From a virus, in the IMG/VR virus record IMGVR_UViG_3300038309_000140, positions 1 through 24,751 of that record: a stretch of 24,751 nt of DNA; one strand, 5' to 3'. The translations under genes were made by a program, and so were the position numbers. This document shows positions 2,278-22,215 of this stretch, piece by piece (position 1 is the first letter of the stretch; every line of letters starts with the position of its first letter). The notes beneath the pieces are model-generated. The model searched no databases. It was not told where the DNA came from and worked only from the letters and a program-made list of their open reading frames with translations.

Positions 2278-2706
2278 CTACGTCGTCGAGCGGTCGCGCG
2301 TCCGGCGAATGACCCGGTAGATCTCGTCGTGGTTCATAAAGTTCGCCTCGCCCTGGCCCAAGCTGACGCGAGTGCGCAGGGTCGCCGGGCGGCAACCGAC
2401 GACCTCCGCCGCCTCCGCGTAGTCGTGGAAAATGAGTTCCGCGCCCGACGTCCGAGCGATGACGACGAGTTCCAGGGTCGTCGTTTTGAGGCGCGTAGCT
2501 CGTCGTTTGGCGAGAGCTTGCTCGCGTTTTTTCTCGTCTTGCCAGTACGAACCCGCGCCGCTGAACGTCGGTTTCTCGTCCACCAGGTAGTTGAAAAAGG
2601 TGGTGAGACGTTGAAGTGAGAGCGGCGGCTTCTGCTGGTACTTGACCGGCAGCTTGCTAATGAGGTCATCCAGATCGGCTTTAAGCTGTTGATATTCAAA
2701 AGACAT
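2278..2706 (-). CDS. Small unknown protein with a possible helix-turn-helix
   Basis: 142 residues, family not recognised. ATG at 2706 is preceded by a good Shine-Dalgarno on the minus strand (AAAGAGGA, about 8 bases away), supporting a real gene. The N-terminal half is charged and probably helical. Residues about 95-120 (AEAAEVVGCRPATLRTRVSL) resemble the helix-turn-helix of NUMOD- or excisionase-like DNA-binding modules: a helix, a turn around G-C-R-P, and a recognition-like helix. The C-terminus is basic (RVIRRTRDRS). It lies between the divergent control region and the primase-helicase on the same strand, so it could be an early gene and possibly a regulator of the divergent promoters. That role is inferred from position and the HTH-like stretch only. 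No signal peptide or membrane segment is seen. Confidence 0.7.
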   Translation of the reverse strand: MSFEYQQLKADLDDLISKLPVKYQQKPPLSLQRLTTFFNYLVDEKPTFSGAGSYWQDEKKREQALAKRRATRLKTTTLELVVIARTSGAELIFHDYAEAAEVVGCRPATLRTRVSLGQGEANFMNHDEIYRVIRRTRDRSTT

Positions 2707-2989
2707 TTTTGAGTCCTCTTTGATAGGTGGTGAGTACGCCGGGCCACGCCCTTCGCCCTCCGTGGGGCGGTTGTGTAATCAGAGAAGGCAGTTTTGGGCC
2801 TCGCTACAGAATACACGAAATACAGATTTTTTTCTTATTCTCTTACCTATTACTCAGAAAATATATAAATATACTACTCTATATCTTATCTCTATTATAC
2901 TTATTCTCTTTCTCTTTAAAAGTACTAAGAATAGTAATCTGTATTAAGTAGTTGTGTAGCAGCTTTATATAAAACAATACCTTACAGAC

Positions 2990-3000
2990 CCCCATCTGCT
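2990..3000. repeat. 11-bp direct repeat CCCCATCTGCT, copy 1
   Basis: CCCCATCTGCT here recurs identically at 3158-3168. Both copies are preceded by ACAG within a few bases (2984-2987 and 3151-3154). Together they bracket the region just before the small terminase-like gene. Confidence 0.45.
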
Positions 3001-3021
3001 ACAGCACTTTTTATCTGTAGC
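2998..3021. repeat. Hairpin formed by an inverted pair of GCTACAG elements
   Basis: GCTACAG (2998-3004) and CTGTAGC (3015-3021) form a 7-bp perfect stem around a 10-base T-rich loop. The same 7-mer also occurs at 2803-2809 and 3148-3154. The stem is not directly followed by a clean T-run, so an operator or iteron-like role is at least as likely as termination. Confidence 0.45.
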
Positions 3022-3084
3022 GACCTTTTCGTCACTTCCCCATTGAAATCAAAAGGTTAATCAAAATTTCGCCTCCCATCTATT

Positions 3085-3100
3085 TCTGCCAGACGAAAGA
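3085..3100. repeat. 16-bp direct repeat, copy 2
   Basis: Identical in sequence and orientation to 2261-2276. This copy lies about 110 bases upstream of the small terminase-like gene and directly before the palindrome cluster. Confidence 0.6.
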
Positions 3101-3103
3101 AAT

Positions 3104-3157
3104 CTTCAACCCCCGGTCGGTGAAGCCGAGACCTCGAGGTCTTCACTGCTACAGTGA
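3104..3157. promoter_or_regulatory. Palindrome cluster upstream of the terminase genes
   Basis: Two dyads abut: a perfect 14-bp palindrome AGACCTCGAGGTCT (3129-3142) and a hairpin TCACTG-CTA-CAGTGA (3143-3157). TGAAG (3121-3125) can pair with CTTCA on either side (3104-3108 or 3141-3145), so two mutually exclusive RNA hairpins are possible. The site is about 50 bases upstream of the small terminase-like gene, a common place for phage packaging sites and late-promoter operators. The function is not established. Confidence 0.45.
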
Positions 3158-7253: not shown

Positions 7254-7625
7254 ATGGCAAAGGTGAAAGCTTTTCAGGACGCAGATGGGGTTCCCTACGC
7301 TTATCGGTTTACGTGCCCAGGATGCGGCGACGAACACATCCTCCATACAGGCAAACCAAATACTTTGGGTGCATCGTGGTCATTCAATAATGACGTGGAT
7401 AAACCTACCTTCCAACCGTCACTCAACTATCGAACTGGTCATTACTGCCCCGGTTCGCCGCCTGCTGAGGCATGCTGGCTATGTAAAGAAGCGCGTGAAG
7501 ATAACCATCCCTCACTGTGCCTCGTTTGTCATAGCTTCATTCGTGATGGGAAGATTCAGTTCTTGGGTGACTGCACTCATGCCTTCGCAGGCCAGACGCT
7601 AGAACTTCCGGAGATTGAGGAATGA
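7254..7625 (+). CDS. Zinc-finger-like protein (DUF6527 type)
   Basis: 123 residues from ATG 7254. GTG 7251 is an in-frame alternative, but CGGAG at 7241-7245 suits 7254. Cys/His pairs suggest zinc binding: CPGCG (C21, C24), C65, CWLC (C74, C77), CLVCH (C89, C92, H93) and CTH (C107, H109). The pattern F-x-CPGCG...H...W-x-FN...PTFxPS...CHSFIxDGxIQFLxDCxHxxAGQ matches small phage and bacterial proteins placed in DUF6527, some of which carry the misleading name ammonia monooxygenase. The CWLC-to-CLVC segment looks like an insertion relative to the simplest versions. Its biochemical role is unknown. It overlaps the Nudix gene by four bases (ATGA). Confidence 0.75.
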   Translation: MAKVKAFQDADGVPYAYRFTCPGCGDEHILHTGKPNTLGASWSFNNDVDKPTFQPSLNYRTGHYCPGSPPAEACWLCKEAREDNHPSLCLVCHSFIRDGKIQFLGDCTHAFAGQTLELPEIEE

Positions 7626-8002
7626 TCAGGGCAGCCGGTGTAATGCTTTGGCACGGTGACAAGCTGCTCTTGCTGCGCCGGGCAAATGAGACCGATTTCG
7701 TCGGTTACTGGTCTCTACCTGGTGGCCACGTAGAGGACGGCGAGTCAGTGCGTGAGGCGGTCGTCCGGGAAGTACGTGAGGAGTGCGGTGCGGTAATTGA
7801 TAACCCCGCCGATCTCCGCCTGGTGCGGGTTCAACTCAACCCCATCCACTACGAAACTTATACCGGGTTTACGCCGGTGGAGTTCAAACCGGTGTTGAAT
7901 TTTGAACATGATAAATACGTCTGGGCTGAGGTGGCTGAACTCCCCTATCCGCTTCACCCGGGACTTCTCTCAACCCTTCGTCTGTTAGGGATGGCTTCAT
8001 GA
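7622..8002 (+). CDS. Nudix hydrolase
   Basis: Hydrolyses a nucleoside diphosphate linked to another moiety; the substrate cannot be read from sequence. 126 residues, close to the minimum for a single-domain enzyme. The Nudix box is complete (residues 35-57): G35, E41, then REVREECGA with R49, E50, E53, E54 and G56, so the metal-binding glutamates are all present. The N-terminus starts directly on the first strand (IRAAGVML). ATGA overlaps at both ends (7622-7625 and 7999-8002) show it is translated with its neighbours. Possible roles include nucleotide-pool cleaning, NAD or cap metabolism, or countering nucleotide-based defences; none is shown by the sequence. A housekeeping enzyme gene inside a head operon is a typical moron-like insertion. 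Confidence 0.93.
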   Translation: MIRAAGVMLWHGDKLLLLRRANETDFVGYWSLPGGHVEDGESVREAVVREVREECGAVIDNPADLRLVRVQLNPIHYETYTGFTPVEFKPVLNFEHDKYVWAEVAELPYPLHPGLLSTLRLLGMAS

Positions 8003-8346: not shown

Positions 8347-9705
8347 ATGCCGCTCAATCCTTCAGACCAAGACAAACGAAGTATCTGGTTGCCTAATTCC
8401 AACGGACCGCGCTGGAATTCTCTCTATCCGAATGGTAACGCACCTGCTGGTTATATTACTCCTCCGCCAGGCGTTTCCGGGATGTTGTTGGCTCGTCTCT
8501 TCAACTTTGACAACGTTCCTGATTACACGTCCGCAACTGACATGCTTACGTTGGGGAGTACCCGCAACAACATCTCACCTCAGAATACCGGAGGACTCCC
8601 AAGTGGTTGGGATGCCCTTTACGTCCAAGACGAGTGGTATCCGCAGAACGGCTACACGTCTAACCATCCCACGGTAGAGATTCTTACCTCAAATCTGGAT
8701 AAAACCAGACTGGGAACTGGTAAGTCGTACGTGCAATACCGTGAATCGAATTCGCCAAGTCAAACTGACTGGAGAAGTGATGGGCAGCTGGTGAGTCGAC
8801 TCGATGCCAACTGGGGTCAATACCGCAAGGTCTACGTTGAATTCTGGATTCGTTTCAGCCCTAATTGGTACGGCCTGCAAGATACCGACATTGCCGGATG
8901 GGCTGCGAAGTTCTTCCGGATCGGTTATTGGAACGGCGTTGACCCCACGAAGATTTTCAGCGGTTTCCAAGGGGATTTGGGTCCTATTGCTATCATGCAA
9001 TATTCCCATAATCAATATGGCGTGCGTAATGATTTGGCGCTTCGTGGTGGTGGCAATATCGGCGTTAATTATAACTTCGGTAAGACATCGGGGAGAGACT
9101 TCTCATTTAACTTCGGTTCTAGTACCGTTGGACAAGGGTACGGTGGAGTCGATCCGCAAATTCCCGATTTGGTCAATGGCGGTTATCTGATTAACTACAA
9201 CGGGACCATTAGTCACAAGCAGGTATACGGTGATACAGGCGTTTGGACTAAGGTAGGAATGTACGTTGAGATGAATACCGCTATCGGCGCCCCCGACGGT
9301 ATTCTTACCCAGTGGATCAATGACGAACAATTTAACAACATAACTGATATTGACTGGATCGGAGCGAGCATTGAGGTTGATGCAAATACCAACTTCGCAA
9401 TTGGTGACACAGTTACCGGTTTGACGTCTGGTCAAACTTGGGTGGTTCAGCAAACTCATCTGACCACCGGGCTTTATTTTGTACCGGTAGCAGGGGGCGC
9501 TCCCACGTCATTTTACCTGGTAGGTGAGACGGTTCAAAATCAGAATGGTCAACAGGCGACGGTGACTAAGATTCCAACAATGAGTGGTTGGAATTACTTT
9601 GCCGTGGGCGGTAATTCAGATCTTGCTCAGTACCCGGTAGCTGATCTATTTGAAGACTGGCATGCCGTTGACGACGGCGTAATTCTTGTGGGGTCCGCTG
9701 TATGA
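8347..9705 (+). CDS. Jelly-roll lectin/polysaccharide-lyase-like protein
   Basis: 452 residues. ATG at 8347 follows TTGGAGA. Features typical of concanavalin A-like jelly-roll folds (lectins, LamG, PL14/PL20-type lyases) are present: YVEFWIRFSPNWYG at 162-175, W-x-KVGMYVEMNT near 303-313, then DGILTQWINDEQFNNIT, and a closing GWNYFAVGGNSD with EDWHAVDDGVIL at the C-terminus. In such proteins the final 'GG...D' strands complete the sandwich. Residues about 346-410 look like a separate beta domain inserted between the last strands (FAIGDTVTG ... LVGETVQNQNGQQATV). Catalysis is not shown: no catalytic triad could be assigned. Binding or cleaving of a host surface glycan is the leading inference. 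It overlaps the adhesin gene by four bases. Confidence 0.6.
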   Translation: MPLNPSDQDKRSIWLPNSNGPRWNSLYPNGNAPAGYITPPPGVSGMLLARLFNFDNVPDYTSATDMLTLGSTRNNISPQNTGGLPSGWDALYVQDEWYPQNGYTSNHPTVEILTSNLDKTRLGTGKSYVQYRESNSPSQTDWRSDGQLVSRLDANWGQYRKVYVEFWIRFSPNWYGLQDTDIAGWAAKFFRIGYWNGVDPTKIFSGFQGDLGPIAIMQYSHNQYGVRNDLALRGGGNIGVNYNFGKTSGRDFSFNFGSSTVGQGYGGVDPQIPDLVNGGYLINYNGTISHKQVYGDTGVWTKVGMYVEMNTAIGAPDGILTQWINDEQFNNITDIDWIGASIEVDANTNFAIGDTVTGLTSGQTWVVQQTHLTTGLYFVPVAGGAPTSFYLVGETVQNQNGQQATVTKIPTMSGWNYFAVGGNSDLAQYPVADLFEDWHAVDDGVILVGSAV

Positions 9706-11399
9706 GCTGGGAACTACGATACAACTTAGGTATCCCCACGAACTTAGCGCCGGGGAATTTTAACAACCTTACGTCTACCACGGCGTCAATTGCTGACAGC
9801 ATCGACTTCCTTACCGGCAACCCTACCGGTATTGGAATTTCGTATACCGCCAGCCCAGATAATGTTTTTCAAAATGCTGGGTTCTCTGGGGTAGGGGTCG
9901 CTGATCTTTCATGGTGTAGTACCCCAGCGGCACTTGCGGACGCCCACTACATCTCTGTAGCTGGTAATTGGGCAGCTCTTACTCTGACAGGGTTGACCGT
10001 TGGTGCTACCTACATCGTAAAGTGTGCTTCGTCCACTACTGCCACGGGAAGGGTTACAAGCTGGCGAGTAAATGGCGGAACGTCGCAAGACCTTGCGAGT
10101 TACGACGCCACAAACAGTCAGCCGAATAACTCAGTTGGTTTGACTTTTACATTCACCGCTACTGCGACCACCGCAGTCATTGAATACACGCGTGCTGCTT
10201 CGTCAAGTGGTAACTCGTACGCTAATGCACTTTTAGTGACCAACGCTAGTTCAACGGTCAGTGCCGATGCCACCGTGGCAAGCGGTGCAACGCTCAACTA
10301 CTCCACAGTTGGGTTAGGGACAATTACCTCAGCGGTATTAAGTGACGGAACGAATACGTTGACGTTGACGAGCGTGACCGATACCACCGCTTTGGTTCCA
10401 GCGCTCGCAAATAATCTTCAGTATTGTCTTTTCGGTACGGTGACGCTCACGGTTTCAGATGGAACCAACTCCGCTAGTACGATGTTGACCCTGAACCCTC
10501 CGGCCGGGTACTCAAAGGTTTCATTGCTTACCGGTTTCGTGACCGACGTTAATTCGTTTCTCTATAACTACGGCGGCACACCCCAAGTCGGCGATCAATT
10601 CGTATGGAATTCGACCGCCCTTATCTTGAACTCAGATGGAACTTTTACCGCAACCGCTGATGGTTCGTACCCCGTTTACGGGATCTCGTCCGCTGATGGG
10701 TTGATGCAATCATTCAATATCATCGTAGGTACCTTTTCGACAACCGTGAGTTCGGTAGGCGGACCCGCTAACGGAACGTATCATCAGGGTGATAATCTTG
10801 ATTTTGACGTGACATTTGATTACGCGGTTGCCATTTCAACAACTGGCGGAGTTCCTTTTGTCGCAATTCAACTTAGTGGGGCAGTTGTCCAGGCTTCTTA
10901 CTTGAGTCAACCTTCGTCAACGGTTCTGCGATTCAGATATATCGTTCAGTTGGGAGATACAGCACCAACCGGGATCACCATTGGTTCAGCAATCCAGGCA
11001 AACGGTGGTTCGATAACAAACCAAAATGGGACTGGTGGCGTTGATCTTACGTTAAATAACGTTCCTAGTTTCAGTGCGGTTATCATTGAGGGCTCGACAA
11101 CTGGTCCGCTTGGTGCCGGTGGAGTTTTACAGACCGCGCCTGTTAAGTTGAGTTTGATCAAGGGTCAAGTAGTTCTATATGCTTTGATCAATACCGATCA
11201 AGATTCCGCTGTAAATGGGGCTGTGATCGAAGGATCTGACGATTTAGTTACTTGGTATCCGATTACGGTTGGAAGCGTGACTGGCGGAATTCCACTTCTT
11301 CTACAAGCCAAACCAATTTTTGAATACCAGAGGTTAAAACTGACAAACGGAAGTGTCGCACAAACTACGTTGTCAACTCGGTTAAGCTTCACCTACTAA
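9702..11399 (+). CDS. Multi-domain Ig/cadherin-like surface protein
   Basis: 565 residues, rich in Thr, Ser, Gly and Val, no membrane segment. The apparent domains are: about 1-180, a carbohydrate-binding-module-like sandwich (LTLTGLTVGATYIVKC..., FTFTATATTAVIEYTR); about 185-265, an Ig-like unit (SDGTNTLTLTSV, GTVTLTVSDGTNSAS); about 266-345, a further beta unit; about 347-460, a cadherin/VCBS-like domain (GPANGTYHQGDNLDFDVTF, FRYIVQLGDTAPTGI, NGGSITNQNGTGG) as in large bacterial surface adhesins; 466-565, the same domain as the 7999-8322 protein. It has the architecture of a fibre or adhesin displayed on the virion. The cadherin-like part may have been acquired from a bacterial adhesin. Target and receptor are unknown. 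Confidence 0.65.
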   Translation: MSWELRYNLGIPTNLAPGNFNNLTSTTASIADSIDFLTGNPTGIGISYTASPDNVFQNAGFSGVGVADLSWCSTPAALADAHYISVAGNWAALTLTGLTVGATYIVKCASSTTATGRVTSWRVNGGTSQDLASYDATNSQPNNSVGLTFTFTATATTAVIEYTRAASSSGNSYANALLVTNASSTVSADATVASGATLNYSTVGLGTITSAVLSDGTNTLTLTSVTDTTALVPALANNLQYCLFGTVTLTVSDGTNSASTMLTLNPPAGYSKVSLLTGFVTDVNSFLYNYGGTPQVGDQFVWNSTALILNSDGTFTATADGSYPVYGISSADGLMQSFNIIVGTFSTTVSSVGGPANGTYHQGDNLDFDVTFDYAVAISTTGGVPFVAIQLSGAVVQASYLSQPSSTVLRFRYIVQLGDTAPTGITIGSAIQANGGSITNQNGTGGVDLTLNNVPSFSAVIIEGSTTGPLGAGGVLQTAPVKLSLIKGQVVLYALINTDQDSAVNGAVIEGSDDLVTWYPITVGSVTGGIPLLLQAKPIFEYQRLKLTNGSVAQTTLSTRLSFTY

Positions 11400-18450: not shown

Positions 18451-19935
18451 ATGACCAACGCACTCTCAATTAACCGGTTGATCAACGTTACGGTCAACCT
18501 CTCGCCGTCCAGCGCGTCGTTCCAGAACATCAGTACGCTGCTCATTCTGGGTTCGACGAGTGTCATCGACGTGGTTGAACGCCGTCGTTCTTATACCGGC
18601 ATCGACGGCGTAGCGCTTGATTTCGGCACCACGTCTCCTGAGTACCTGGCAGCGGTGCTCTGGTTTGAGCAAGCGCCGCAACCCACCACGCTCCAGATTG
18701 GACGTTGGGCGAAAACCGACACGGCTGGCAAGTTGGTGGGCGCTACCCTGAGCGCAGCCGATCAGCTGATTTCAGCGTGGACCTCTATTACCAACGGTTC
18801 ATTCGATGTGACCATCGACGGTGGTACACCGCAAGCGCTCACCGCCCTCGACTTCAGCGGTGATACTAACCTCAACGGGGTGGCGTCCACCATCACCACG
18901 GCGCTCACTGGTGCCACGTGCGTATGGAATAGCAACTTCAGCCGCTTCGAGTTCACCAGCGCCACCACCGGTGCTACCAGCACGGTCTCCTTCCTTACCT
19001 CTGGGACGGTTGGGACTGACATCTCAGGTATGCTGGGTGGCCTGGCAACCTCGTCCGGTGCTTACGTGGCAGACGGGATCGTCGCGGAAACCGCCTTGGA
19101 AGCGGTCACCTTGTTTGACCAGAACTTTGGTCAGGACTGGTACGCTGTCGCGTTGCTCGGCGGTCAAGACAGCGATTACGTGGCCATCTCGGGTTACATC
19201 GAGGCGGCAACCAATAAGCACTTGAACGGCGTTACCTCCCAGGAAGCCGGTACCCTGGTCAGTACCGATACCTCGAACGTGGGTTACCAACTCAAGCAGC
19301 TGGCTCGTAAACGTTCTCCGGTCCAGTACTCAAGCAGCAACCCTTACGCGGTGTGCTCGTTGTTGGGCAGGATCTTGACTACCGACTATAACGCCAACAA
19401 CTCAGTCATCACCCTGATGTACAAGCAAGAACCCGGGATCGTTCCGGAGACGCTCAACGTTACCCAGATGAACGCGTTGGAAGGGAACAACGTCAACGTC
19501 TTCGTGGCGTATAACAACAACACCGCCATCATCGAACCGGGTATCATGCCGTCAGGTGATTTCATCGACACGATCACCGGGGTGGATTGGTTGGCGTTGG
19601 ATATTCAAACCACCGTCTACAACCTGCTTTACACCTCCACCACGAAGGTACCTCAGACCAACCCCGGTAACCATCAGCTGGTGACGGCCATTGAAAGCGT
19701 ACTTATCAAGGCGGTGAACAATGGGTTGATCGCCCCCGGCATCTGGAACTCTGGCGGCTTCGGTGCGTTGAGCCAGGGTGACTACCTGGCAAAAGGTTAC
19801 TACATCTATGCGCCGCCTATCAGCAGCCAGGCACAAGCCGACCGCGAGCTTCGTAAGTCGGTCAGCATCCAAGTAGCTGTCAAGCTGGCCGGGGCAATTC
19901 ACACCGTCGACATTCAAATCAACGTTAACCGGTAA
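18451..19935 (+). CDS. Contractile tail sheath protein (DUF3383)
   Basis: Forms the contractile sheath that drives the tube into the cell. 494 residues; GAGGAG precedes ATG 18451. N-terminal INRLINVTVNLSPSSASFQN, then STLLILGSTSVID and YLAAVLWFEQAPQPTTLQIG are DUF3383 hallmarks. Later DWYAVALLGGQDSDYVAI and the C-terminal KGYYIYAPPISSQAQADREL then RKSVSIQVAVKLAGAIHTVD also fit. This gene is the main evidence for a contractile tail. It is followed by the tail tube gene after 12 bases. Confidence 0.92.
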   Translation: MTNALSINRLINVTVNLSPSSASFQNISTLLILGSTSVIDVVERRRSYTGIDGVALDFGTTSPEYLAAVLWFEQAPQPTTLQIGRWAKTDTAGKLVGATLSAADQLISAWTSITNGSFDVTIDGGTPQALTALDFSGDTNLNGVASTITTALTGATCVWNSNFSRFEFTSATTGATSTVSFLTSGTVGTDISGMLGGLATSSGAYVADGIVAETALEAVTLFDQNFGQDWYAVALLGGQDSDYVAISGYIEAATNKHLNGVTSQEAGTLVSTDTSNVGYQLKQLARKRSPVQYSSSNPYAVCSLLGRILTTDYNANNSVITLMYKQEPGIVPETLNVTQMNALEGNNVNVFVAYNNNTAIIEPGIMPSGDFIDTITGVDWLALDIQTTVYNLLYTSTTKVPQTNPGNHQLVTAIESVLIKAVNNGLIAPGIWNSGGFGALSQGDYLAKGYYIYAPPISSQAQADRELRKSVSIQVAVKLAGAIHTVDIQINVNR

Positions 19936-19947
19936 GAGGACTGAGAT

Positions 19948-20394
19948 ATGTCGGTTACATACGCATTCCGTGACGTAAGCGCTTCCATGGTAGGACCGGG
20001 CGGTGCCATCAACTTGGGTGCTGATGCAGGTGCCGCCGAAGAGGGTATCACCATCGAGCCGAATGAGGACATCGATACCTTGACGGTGGGAGCTGACGGT
20101 ACCCCCATGCACTCACTTCATTCTGATCGTTCCGGTACGATCCGGGTACGGTTGTTGAAGACGTCACCCACCAACCAGAAGCTGGCGCAGCTATACGCCA
20201 TCCAGACGGCCGACTCCTCCCAACACGGGCAGAACACGTTGACCGTTGCAAATACCTATACGCAAGACATGATCTCCTGCCAGAAAGTCGCGTTTAAGCG
20301 ACCGCCTACGTTGACGTATGCGAAAGAAGGTGGCATGAATGAGTGGGAGTTCAGCGCCGGGATCATCGATCGTGTTCTGGGCGGGGTGACCTGA
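19948..20394 (+). CDS. Tail tube protein (DUF3277)
   Basis: 148 residues, with AAGAGGA before ATG 19948. TYAFRDVSASMVGPGGAINL and GADAGAAEEGITIEPNED are nearly the consensus of DUF3277 proteins, which form the inner tube of contractile tails. SGTIRVRLLKTSPTNQKLAQ and ISCQKVAFKRPPTLTYAKEG also fit the family. Sheath then tube is the standard order. Confidence is high for the family and good for the role. Confidence 0.9.
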   Translation: MSVTYAFRDVSASMVGPGGAINLGADAGAAEEGITIEPNEDIDTLTVGADGTPMHSLHSDRSGTIRVRLLKTSPTNQKLAQLYAIQTADSSQHGQNTLTVANTYTQDMISCQKVAFKRPPTLTYAKEGGMNEWEFSAGIIDRVLGGVT

Positions 20395-20395
20395 G

Positions 20396-20809
20396 ATGCA
20401 ACTTGAGCTACATGGGATTACGTATCGAACGGTTAAGGCCATGGACGCCTTCACGCAACTTAAGATCGCTCGTCGGCTTGGTCCCGCTGTTCCGGTACTC
20501 GAAGGTGTAATCAAGAAGGAGAACCTGGAAAAAGATCGTCGTATCTTGGTGGTTCTCATGTTCTCCCACATCGCAGAGGAGGACATGCTGTACGTCGTTG
20601 ATCAGTGCCTGACGGTTGTCGGCCGGGTTCAGGCTAATAACCAGATAGCGGATCTCAAACGGAATGGCTCGCTGATGTTTGATGACATTTCTATGTCTGA
20701 CCTCATTGAAATTGCGACAGCGGTGATCGAGGAGACACTCGGCGATTTTTTTCGTACCGCGCTTTCTCCCTTGGAAGCGCGGACGAACCCAGATCATTCG
20801 TCTCAATGA
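20396..20809 (+). CDS. Tail assembly chaperone, short form
   Basis: 137 residues; acts on the tape measure protein during tail assembly and is usually absent from the virion. It starts one base after the tube gene stop. The sequence is helical (AFTQLKIARRLGPAVPVLEG, VLMFSHIAEEDMLYVVDQCL) and ends LGDFFRTALSPLEARTNPDH, as in phage tail chaperones encoded between tube and tape measure. GAT TTT TTT CGT at residues 117-120 contains a phased slippery heptamer (20746-20752). Its stop overlaps the next start by four bases (20806-20809). Confidence 0.8.
   Translation: MQLELHGITYRTVKAMDAFTQLKIARRLGPAVPVLEGVIKKENLEKDRRILVVLMFSHIAEEDMLYVVDQCLTVVGRVQANNQIADLKRNGSLMFDDISMSDLIEIATAVIEETLGDFFRTALSPLEARTNPDHSSQ
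20746..20752 (+). promoter_or_regulatory. Putative programmed -1 ribosomal frameshift site (T_TTT_TTT)
   Basis: Seven consecutive T bases are phased as GA-T TTT TTT C in the chaperone frame, the ideal X_XXY_YYZ heptamer. The -1 frame is open from here to TAG at 20962-20964. A shift would join residues 1-119 to 18 linker residues (starting SYRAFSLGSADEP) and then to the 52-residue downstream chaperone, giving a 189-residue fusion. Such fusions are established for lambda G-GT and many other tail chaperones. No downstream stimulatory structure was analysed. Confidence 0.6.
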
Positions 20810-20964
20810 CAAGTGGTGAGGACTGGTTACTTCGACCGGTCCTCAAGAACCTCTGCAGATATGAATCGCTCTTGAGTGGGAAGCTACGGCTCGTTGATAT
20901 CGCCAAGTTGAATGAAGCATTAGACGTAGAAATTGAGAACACCAACCGATTGCAACGGAGTTAG
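20806..20964 (+). CDS. Second tail assembly chaperone ORF (DUF6889-like)
   Basis: 52 residues, MTSGEDWLLRPVLKNLC at the start and LDVEIENTNRLQRS at the end. The pattern DWLLRPVLxxxCRYESLxxGxLxLVDIAxxNxALDV is that of small proteins (DUF6889 type) found between tail chaperones and tape measure genes. ATG 20806 overlaps the preceding stop (ATGA), so it can be made by reinitiation; its frame is also open upstream to the slippery site, so it can be the C-terminal part of a -1 frameshift fusion. The tape measure gene begins four bases after its stop. Confidence 0.78.
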   Translation: MTSGEDWLLRPVLKNLCRYESLLSGKLRLVDIAKLNEALDVEIENTNRLQRS

Positions 20965-20967
20965 ATC

Positions 20968-22215
20968 ATGGCTGGTACTTCCGAGATTCTTCAGGAATAC
21001 CTGATCAGCTTGGGTTATGAGACGGACGAGTTGTCGCTCAAGAAATTCGAACGGCACATGGGAACCGTTGGTAAAACCATCTTCAAAGTTGGAGCTGGTG
21101 TAGCCGGGGTCATCGCGTCCGTCGAAGCCGCCTCTGCCAAGTTCGCCTATTCGATGCGCCGGATCTACTTTGAATCAGAGCTTGCCGATTCGTCCGTGGA
21201 AAACCTCAATGCCTTGAGCTTTGCCGGTAAGCAGATCGGCGTGAGCGGTGGGGCGATGGCCAGCGCTGTGCATGATATGGCCCAAGCCATTCGTCTTAAT
21301 CCTGGCTTACAGGGTTTGATCGAAAGCTTTGGGGTTCGGGTAACCGGTCGCGATATGAGCGACGTGGCAGTCGACCTGGTTAACGCGCTCCGGAAGCTTC
21401 CGGAGTTCGTCGGGGTGAAGTATGCGTCGCTGTTTGGAATTGACCCGAATACTTATCACCAGATGATTAAGCACATGGACACCCTGCAGCAGAAACGCCG
21501 CCAGCTGCTCAATGTCTATCGGGAGACCGGTTACAACCCGGACCTGGCCAGTAACAAGAAAACGATTCTTGAGTACACCCAGAGCTTGGATCTGCTTGAA
21601 GCCCGTTTGGGTATCCTGGGTCAGGCGTTGCTCATTAAGTTCGCTCCCGCCTTTCATAAGTTCAACGACGTCATCAGCGAATCGGTAACCTGGTGGACTC
21701 AATGGAGCATGGGCGTTCAGCACCTGAATGATGTCCTTGACAACCTCAGCATGAGTAACGTATGGGGTTTCATCAAAGAAGATCTCCTGGGTATTGCGCC
21801 ACCGGCGCACATGACAAAAGGTCATCCCGGTGCCACCGGCTCATGGGATAACGAGGGTTGGACTGGCAGCACCGGGGTATCGAGGTGGCCCAAGAACCAG
21901 GCACCCGGTCTTACTACAGGTACGGCGGGTACGGTACCGCAAAGCGTCGTAAACCGTCCCACGGTTATGCGCCCTGGTGCGCTCCCCGACTGGTTGCGTG
22001 TCCACCCCAGCAGTACCACCAAGTTGGGCGGTGGGGCAGGAAGTTCGGGCGGTGGTCACCACGTAGAAATCGATCAGTCAACCACGATTCATGTGACCGG
22101 TGGGAACGCTTCAGAAACCGCTGATGCGGTTGCGGCGAAGCAGCATCAACTGAACGTTGAACGTAGCTACCAGAATACAGAGGTGCTGCGAAACTTGAAG
22201 GGGTCAGTGAGATGA
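20968..22215 (+). CDS. Tape measure protein (short)
   Basis: 415 residues; sets tail length and lies inside the tube until ejection. The N-terminus (EILQEYLISLGYETDELSLK, KFERHMGTVGKTIFKVGAG) and the hydrophobic stretch VGAGVAGVIASVEAASAKFA (about 45-64) are typical of tape measures, as is the Gly/Ser/Pro-rich C-terminal third ending in a helix (NASETADAVAAKQHQLNVER). At the usual proportion of roughly 1.5 Angstrom per residue this predicts a short tail of about 60 nm. Position after the chaperones confirms the role. It overlaps the Dit-like gene by four bases. Confidence 0.85.
   Translation: MAGTSEILQEYLISLGYETDELSLKKFERHMGTVGKTIFKVGAGVAGVIASVEAASAKFAYSMRRIYFESELADSSVENLNALSFAGKQIGVSGGAMASAVHDMAQAIRLNPGLQGLIESFGVRVTGRDMSDVAVDLVNALRKLPEFVGVKYASLFGIDPNTYHQMIKHMDTLQQKRRQLLNVYRETGYNPDLASNKKTILEYTQSLDLLEARLGILGQALLIKFAPAFHKFNDVISESVTWWTQWSMGVQHLNDVLDNLSMSNVWGFIKEDLLGIAPPAHMTKGHPGATGSWDNEGWTGSTGVSRWPKNQAPGLTTGTAGTVPQSVVNRPTVMRPGALPDWLRVHPSSTTKLGGGAGSSGGGHHVEIDQSTTIHVTGGNASETADAVAAKQHQLNVERSYQNTEVLRNLKGSVR

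Follow-up and report, generated by a model that had tools for sequence, protein, structure and literature searches.

Phages are well known to use ribosomal frameshifting so that a single gene yields two tail assembly chaperones, and sequence comparison strongly suggests that such a frameshift is real and conserved in the virus examined here. In phage P2, which has a contractile tail, the chaperone is made from gene E and as a frameshift product (E+E') at a slip site of the T_TTT_TTG type, and the corresponding slip site of phage lambda is G_GGA_AAG. In lambda G/G-T, a -1 shift late in the gene that precedes the tape measure gene adds a C-terminal extension, which is reached through an open linker (PMC5009743). 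A frameshift chaperone with a T-rich slip site is also found in the Pakpunavirus/Vandenendeviridae myovirus Adele, in whose group annotation has treated the second ORF as a gene of its own (PMC12846349). The closest described systems are those of Klebsiella phage Mulock (MN098327) and Burkholderia phage Magia (NC_070954), in which a -1 fusion is already annotated as 'tape measure chaperone frameshift product'; the text of the Mulock genome paper does not discuss the frameshift.

We analyzed a 24,751-nucleotide stretch of viral DNA (positions 1 to 24,751 of IMG/VR record IMGVR_UViG_3300038309_000140, hereafter the window), for which an initial annotation had proposed a lambda G-GT-like frameshift. 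The 0-frame chaperone ORF occupies positions 20396..20809 of the plus strand (137 aa, stop codon TGA at 20807-20809). The slippery heptamer T_TTT_TTT (20746..20752, plus strand) lies in the exact X_XXY_YYZ phase of this frame, as had been claimed (codons GAT at 20744-46, TTT at 47-49 and TTT at 50-52, followed by CGT). Its distance from the stop, given earlier as 57 bases, is correct if counted to the last base of the stop codon; 54 nt lie between the two. The -1 frame is free of stops from 20710 to the TAG at 20962-20964 and, as described, runs through a 52-aa downstream ORF (20806..20964, plus strand) whose ATG (20806-20808) overlaps the chaperone stop as ATGA. A shift at the heptamer would append a 70-aa extension (20752..20964, including the TAG) to 119 residues of the chaperone, which agrees with the fusion of 189 aa that had been predicted.

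Both halves belong to the families found in Mulock and Magia. In a Pfam profile scan, residues 8-123 of the chaperone matched PF21822 (Phage_TAC_15) with 65.2 bits (curated cutoff 22) and the second domain matched PF21829 (DUF6889) with 44.9 bits (cutoff 23.9), and the respective PHROG matches were phrog_1688, tail assembly chaperone (E 6.5e-19), and phrog_4364 (E 1.8e-15). Gene order and the codon of the shift are also the same in the two phages; their slip sites differ (A_AAT_TTT(_TTG) and C_CCT_TTT), they have no start codon from which a free second protein could be made, and their chaperones are only ~24-28% identical to that of the window. The more distant systems resemble the locus in arrangement rather than in sequence. 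Only PF21822 and PF21829 were matched in the Pfam scan at E values up to 1, which detected neither the lambda chaperone families nor, by sequence, homology to gpG/gpT; moreover, the window phage is contractile-tailed and its slip site is T-rich, unlike lambda. No sequence relation to P2 was found, and its second domain is unrelated by the Pfam scan. Adele differs in its GTTTTT motif and belongs to a different phage family (PMC12846349).

The gene neighborhood is that of a tail module. The upstream gene (19948..20394, plus strand) codes for a tail-tube-like virion protein by its profile match to PF11681 (KPP10_Orf10), and its counterpart in Magia is annotated as XkdM-like. The downstream gene (20968..22215, plus strand) codes for a tail tape measure protein (matches to the tail length tape measure families phrog_12506 and phrog_2276), so that the order of tube, chaperone and tape measure is that of lambda G/GT type frameshift chaperones. 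A tail sheath gene (18451..19935, plus strand; PF11863, DUF3383, 439 bits; phrog_205, E 6e-114) indicates that the phage has a contractile tail. The tape measure protein, at 415 aa, is short for such a tail, and in close relatives it has 388-493 aa. Elsewhere in the window, a MutT/NUDIX hydrolase gene (phrog_1198, 7622-8002) lies within the structural gene block, and two large ORFs among the head genes (452 and 565 aa, 8347-11399), with no family match or only a partial one, are possible decoration or fibre proteins. A primase-like gene on the minus strand (2-1975) runs off the left end of the window; its opposite orientation places a module boundary near 2700-3150, where an AT-rich stretch contains the only T7 run of the window other than that of the slip site.

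Taken by itself, the sequence of the window provides modest evidence for frameshifting. The two T7 runs observed compare with 2.65 expected. Within the genes of the window, 0.2% of codon positions carry an in-phase heptamer, and when the last 28 codons of the chaperone gene were re-drawn synonymously, ~10% of the versions carried some heptamer together with an open -1 frame. This last figure is what favors a chance arrangement, in which the two genes overlap yet are separate and the T run is accidental, as has been suggested for the two T4-like chaperone genes. The evidence that decides the matter therefore comes from relatives.

We gathered loci from viral contigs, genomes and phage records via either half of the gene pair, which yielded 148 distinct loci forming 105 divergent clusters at 85%. 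GenBank relatives included phages of Klebsiella, Escherichia, Acinetobacter, Burkholderia, Bordetella and other hosts, with 24-33% identity. The DUF6889 domain is in the -1 frame in 147 of the 148 loci and overlaps the chaperone ORF in every one. A canonical X_XXY_YYZ heptamer is present at the codon aligned with Phe118 of the window in 138/148 loci, and although its type changes (T_TTT_TTN, A_AAT_TTT, C_CCT_TTT or G_GGT_TTT), all types permit -1 re-pairing. At the level of clusters, the heptamer occurs in 95/105, versus 13.2 expected from the codon usage of each locus with the same amino acids. The Phe codon of the site is TTT in all 104 clusters that have it, versus 39% elsewhere (binomial p ~1e-43). 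Three clusters (L187, L193 and L207) had been found with a DNA pattern containing the T run; when they were removed, TTT was still present at every remaining site Phe. A broad chaperone alignment yielded no usable search pattern.

The linker read after the shift is also conserved as protein, with F-[FY]-x-[RY]... immediately following the slip point and GEDWLLRPV further on, which argues that selection acts on the fusion and not on its parts only. Together with the excess of heptamers and the uniform TTT codon, and with the many relatives in which the second gene has no start codon, this makes the chance arrangement extremely improbable. The alignment of relatives that had been suggested as a check thus strongly supports the proposed -1 frameshift and lambda G-GT-like fusion, and the proposal withstood the refutation that had been formulated for it, i.e., relatives with a broken heptamer or stops in the linker. 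Comparison of the sequences shows the site, the direction, the fused frame and their conservation, and we conclude that a programmed -1 ribosomal frameshift almost certainly yields two tail assembly chaperones from this gene.

Some loci count against this model. Ten lack the canonical heptamer: L003 (Bordetella phage vB_BaM-IFTN9, 1840-1860), L040, L082, L095, L099, L100, L132, L144, L155 and L159. At the same codon they retain a tetramer, either U_UUU or U_UUC, so that all 148 loci have at least a UUU-based U_UUN site, and their -1 linker is open and conserved. In assays in E. coli, U_UU.C and U_UU.U were among the more shift-prone tetramers (PMC4066793). The other exception, L024 (IMGVR_UViG_3300020811_000089, near 2438), is the sole locus with the second domain in the +1 frame, because its T run has six T's; either a single-base error in the contig or genuine variation may account for this.

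Since homopolymers are able to cause slippage of the polymerase (PMC5009743, PMC4066793), the seven T's of the window site also raise the question whether RNA polymerase inserts or omits a U there, such that some mRNAs would encode the fusion in a single frame. However, only four T's are present at the site in 23/105 clusters, many sites are C_CCT_TTT or A_AAT_TTT, for which tandem tRNA slippage is expected and polymerase slippage is not, and the phase of the site relative to the codons is invariant. We regard such transcriptional slippage as very unlikely and, because of the short T runs and the varied P-site codons, favor tandem slippage of two tRNA-Phe on the ribosome.

The initial annotation had further suggested that the region makes three products, i.e., the short form, the fusion and a free 52-aa DUF6889 protein initiated at the ATG at 20806 and coupled to the chaperone stop. 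Apart from the ATGA overlap in the window, a start at -1 from the stop was seen in a few relatives (L025, L034, L048 and L091), and the Met is kept in the close clade of the window. On the other hand, no Shine-Dalgarno sequence precedes the ATG, and an SD-like sequence was found at the start of the second ORF in only 6 of the 74 scored loci. The linker contains no start codon in 12 of 37 clusters, which comprise phage records and loci retrieved via the chaperone, and the distance from start to stop varies among relatives from -1 to +53 nt. In the wider family the Met column is occupied by Leu (V-S/T-[ML]-x-x-G-E-D-W), suggesting that this Met is a residue of the fusion. The overlap is therefore probably incidental, and the free third product, for which the start is not conserved, is unlikely. 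A likewise unlikely combination is that in this phage ~570 bases give three products by joining stop-start coupling of free DUF6889 to a clade-specific SD-like stimulator acting on a fixed-codon site with turnover of its type.

Frameshifting itself appears to be assisted by two elements, both missed in the initial annotation. An SD-like GAGGAG (20729..20734, plus strand) is located 11 nt upstream of the heptamer, a spacing close to that of the SD sequence in dnaX, and is conserved in its clade. Among the 64 clusters with T_TTT_TTN only, 40 had an SD-like tetramer whose first base lies at -18 to -14, versus 4/41 in the rest, and Glu codons at this position are GAG in 53/61 cases versus 40% elsewhere (p ~6e-14). 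The element is likely a frameshift stimulator. Downstream, an RNA hairpin (20753..20785, plus strand) with a core of 10 bp (20757-20766 paired with 20773-20782) has a folding energy of -22.1 kcal/mol (z -4.07 versus dinucleotide shuffles) and is stronger than all other 40-nt stretches sampled nearby. Structure was somewhat enriched downstream of the site family-wide (KS p < 0.01), with a mean z of -0.68 over the 105 clusters and z < -2 in 16 of them, and the test over these clusters did not reveal a common stem. As some relatives have a similarly strong hairpin and others have none, we ascribe it to this phage rather than to the family at large, which is a point against the model. In this phage it is also a likely stimulator of the shift.

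We modeled the chaperone and the -1 extension with AlphaFold2. The chaperone model is confident to residue 123 and disordered beyond, and the slip point is located at the end of its last helix, ahead of the disordered 0-frame tail; both forms would thus share nearly the whole folded domain. The -1 extension was predicted as three helices (pLDDT 84). The BFVD matches of the chaperone model were with the Moogle tape measure chaperone and, at TM up to 0.70, with tail assembly chaperones of Myoviridae, so the predicted fold is that expected of a tail assembly chaperone. Foldseek found no match to it in PDB with E < 0.001, and sequence searches of PDB gave no relevant match for either half. In a second look at PDB, the best match of the chaperone model was 5ir0 (Z 7.9, rmsd 3.2, 93 aligned residues), which is the ORF19 protein from a PICI-like element of Vibrio cholerae; this hints that the satellite protein may have a chaperone-like fold, but the arrangement could be a common one. 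For the DUF6889 model BFVD gave no significant match, and neither this search nor the PDB sequence search detected a relation to a known T-like domain, which is a further point against the model.

The two products would most likely arise and function as follows. Most ribosomes would presumably read through to the chaperone stop and make the short form, and a minority, with tRNA-Phe in the P and A sites on UUU UUU, would slip back one base at the heptamer. The shifted ribosomes would exchange the disordered 18-residue tail for the extension carrying the helical DUF6889 domain. The slip is probably stimulated by the downstream hairpin and by base pairing of GAGGAG to 16S rRNA. On the model of lambda gpG/gpGT, the domain shared by both forms would coat the product of the next gene, the tape measure protein, and the -1 domain would bring in the tail tube subunit, which the previous gene encodes.

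The details that are new for this well-known strategy are a fixed codon with turnover of the site type, a clade-specific SD-like stimulator and a role for DUF6889. Databases either miss the second part or enter it as a separate gene, and many GenBank records of relatives have no annotation of it at all. DUF6889 is of unknown function in Pfam and was not named in the papers found by our literature search. According to the sequence evidence, it normally serves as C-terminal domain in a tail assembly chaperone produced by frameshifting, and this gives the family a testable role. In addition, slip sites and stimulators vary naturally among these loci at a codon that stays fixed, which makes the loci useful for studying the evolution of frameshift signals.
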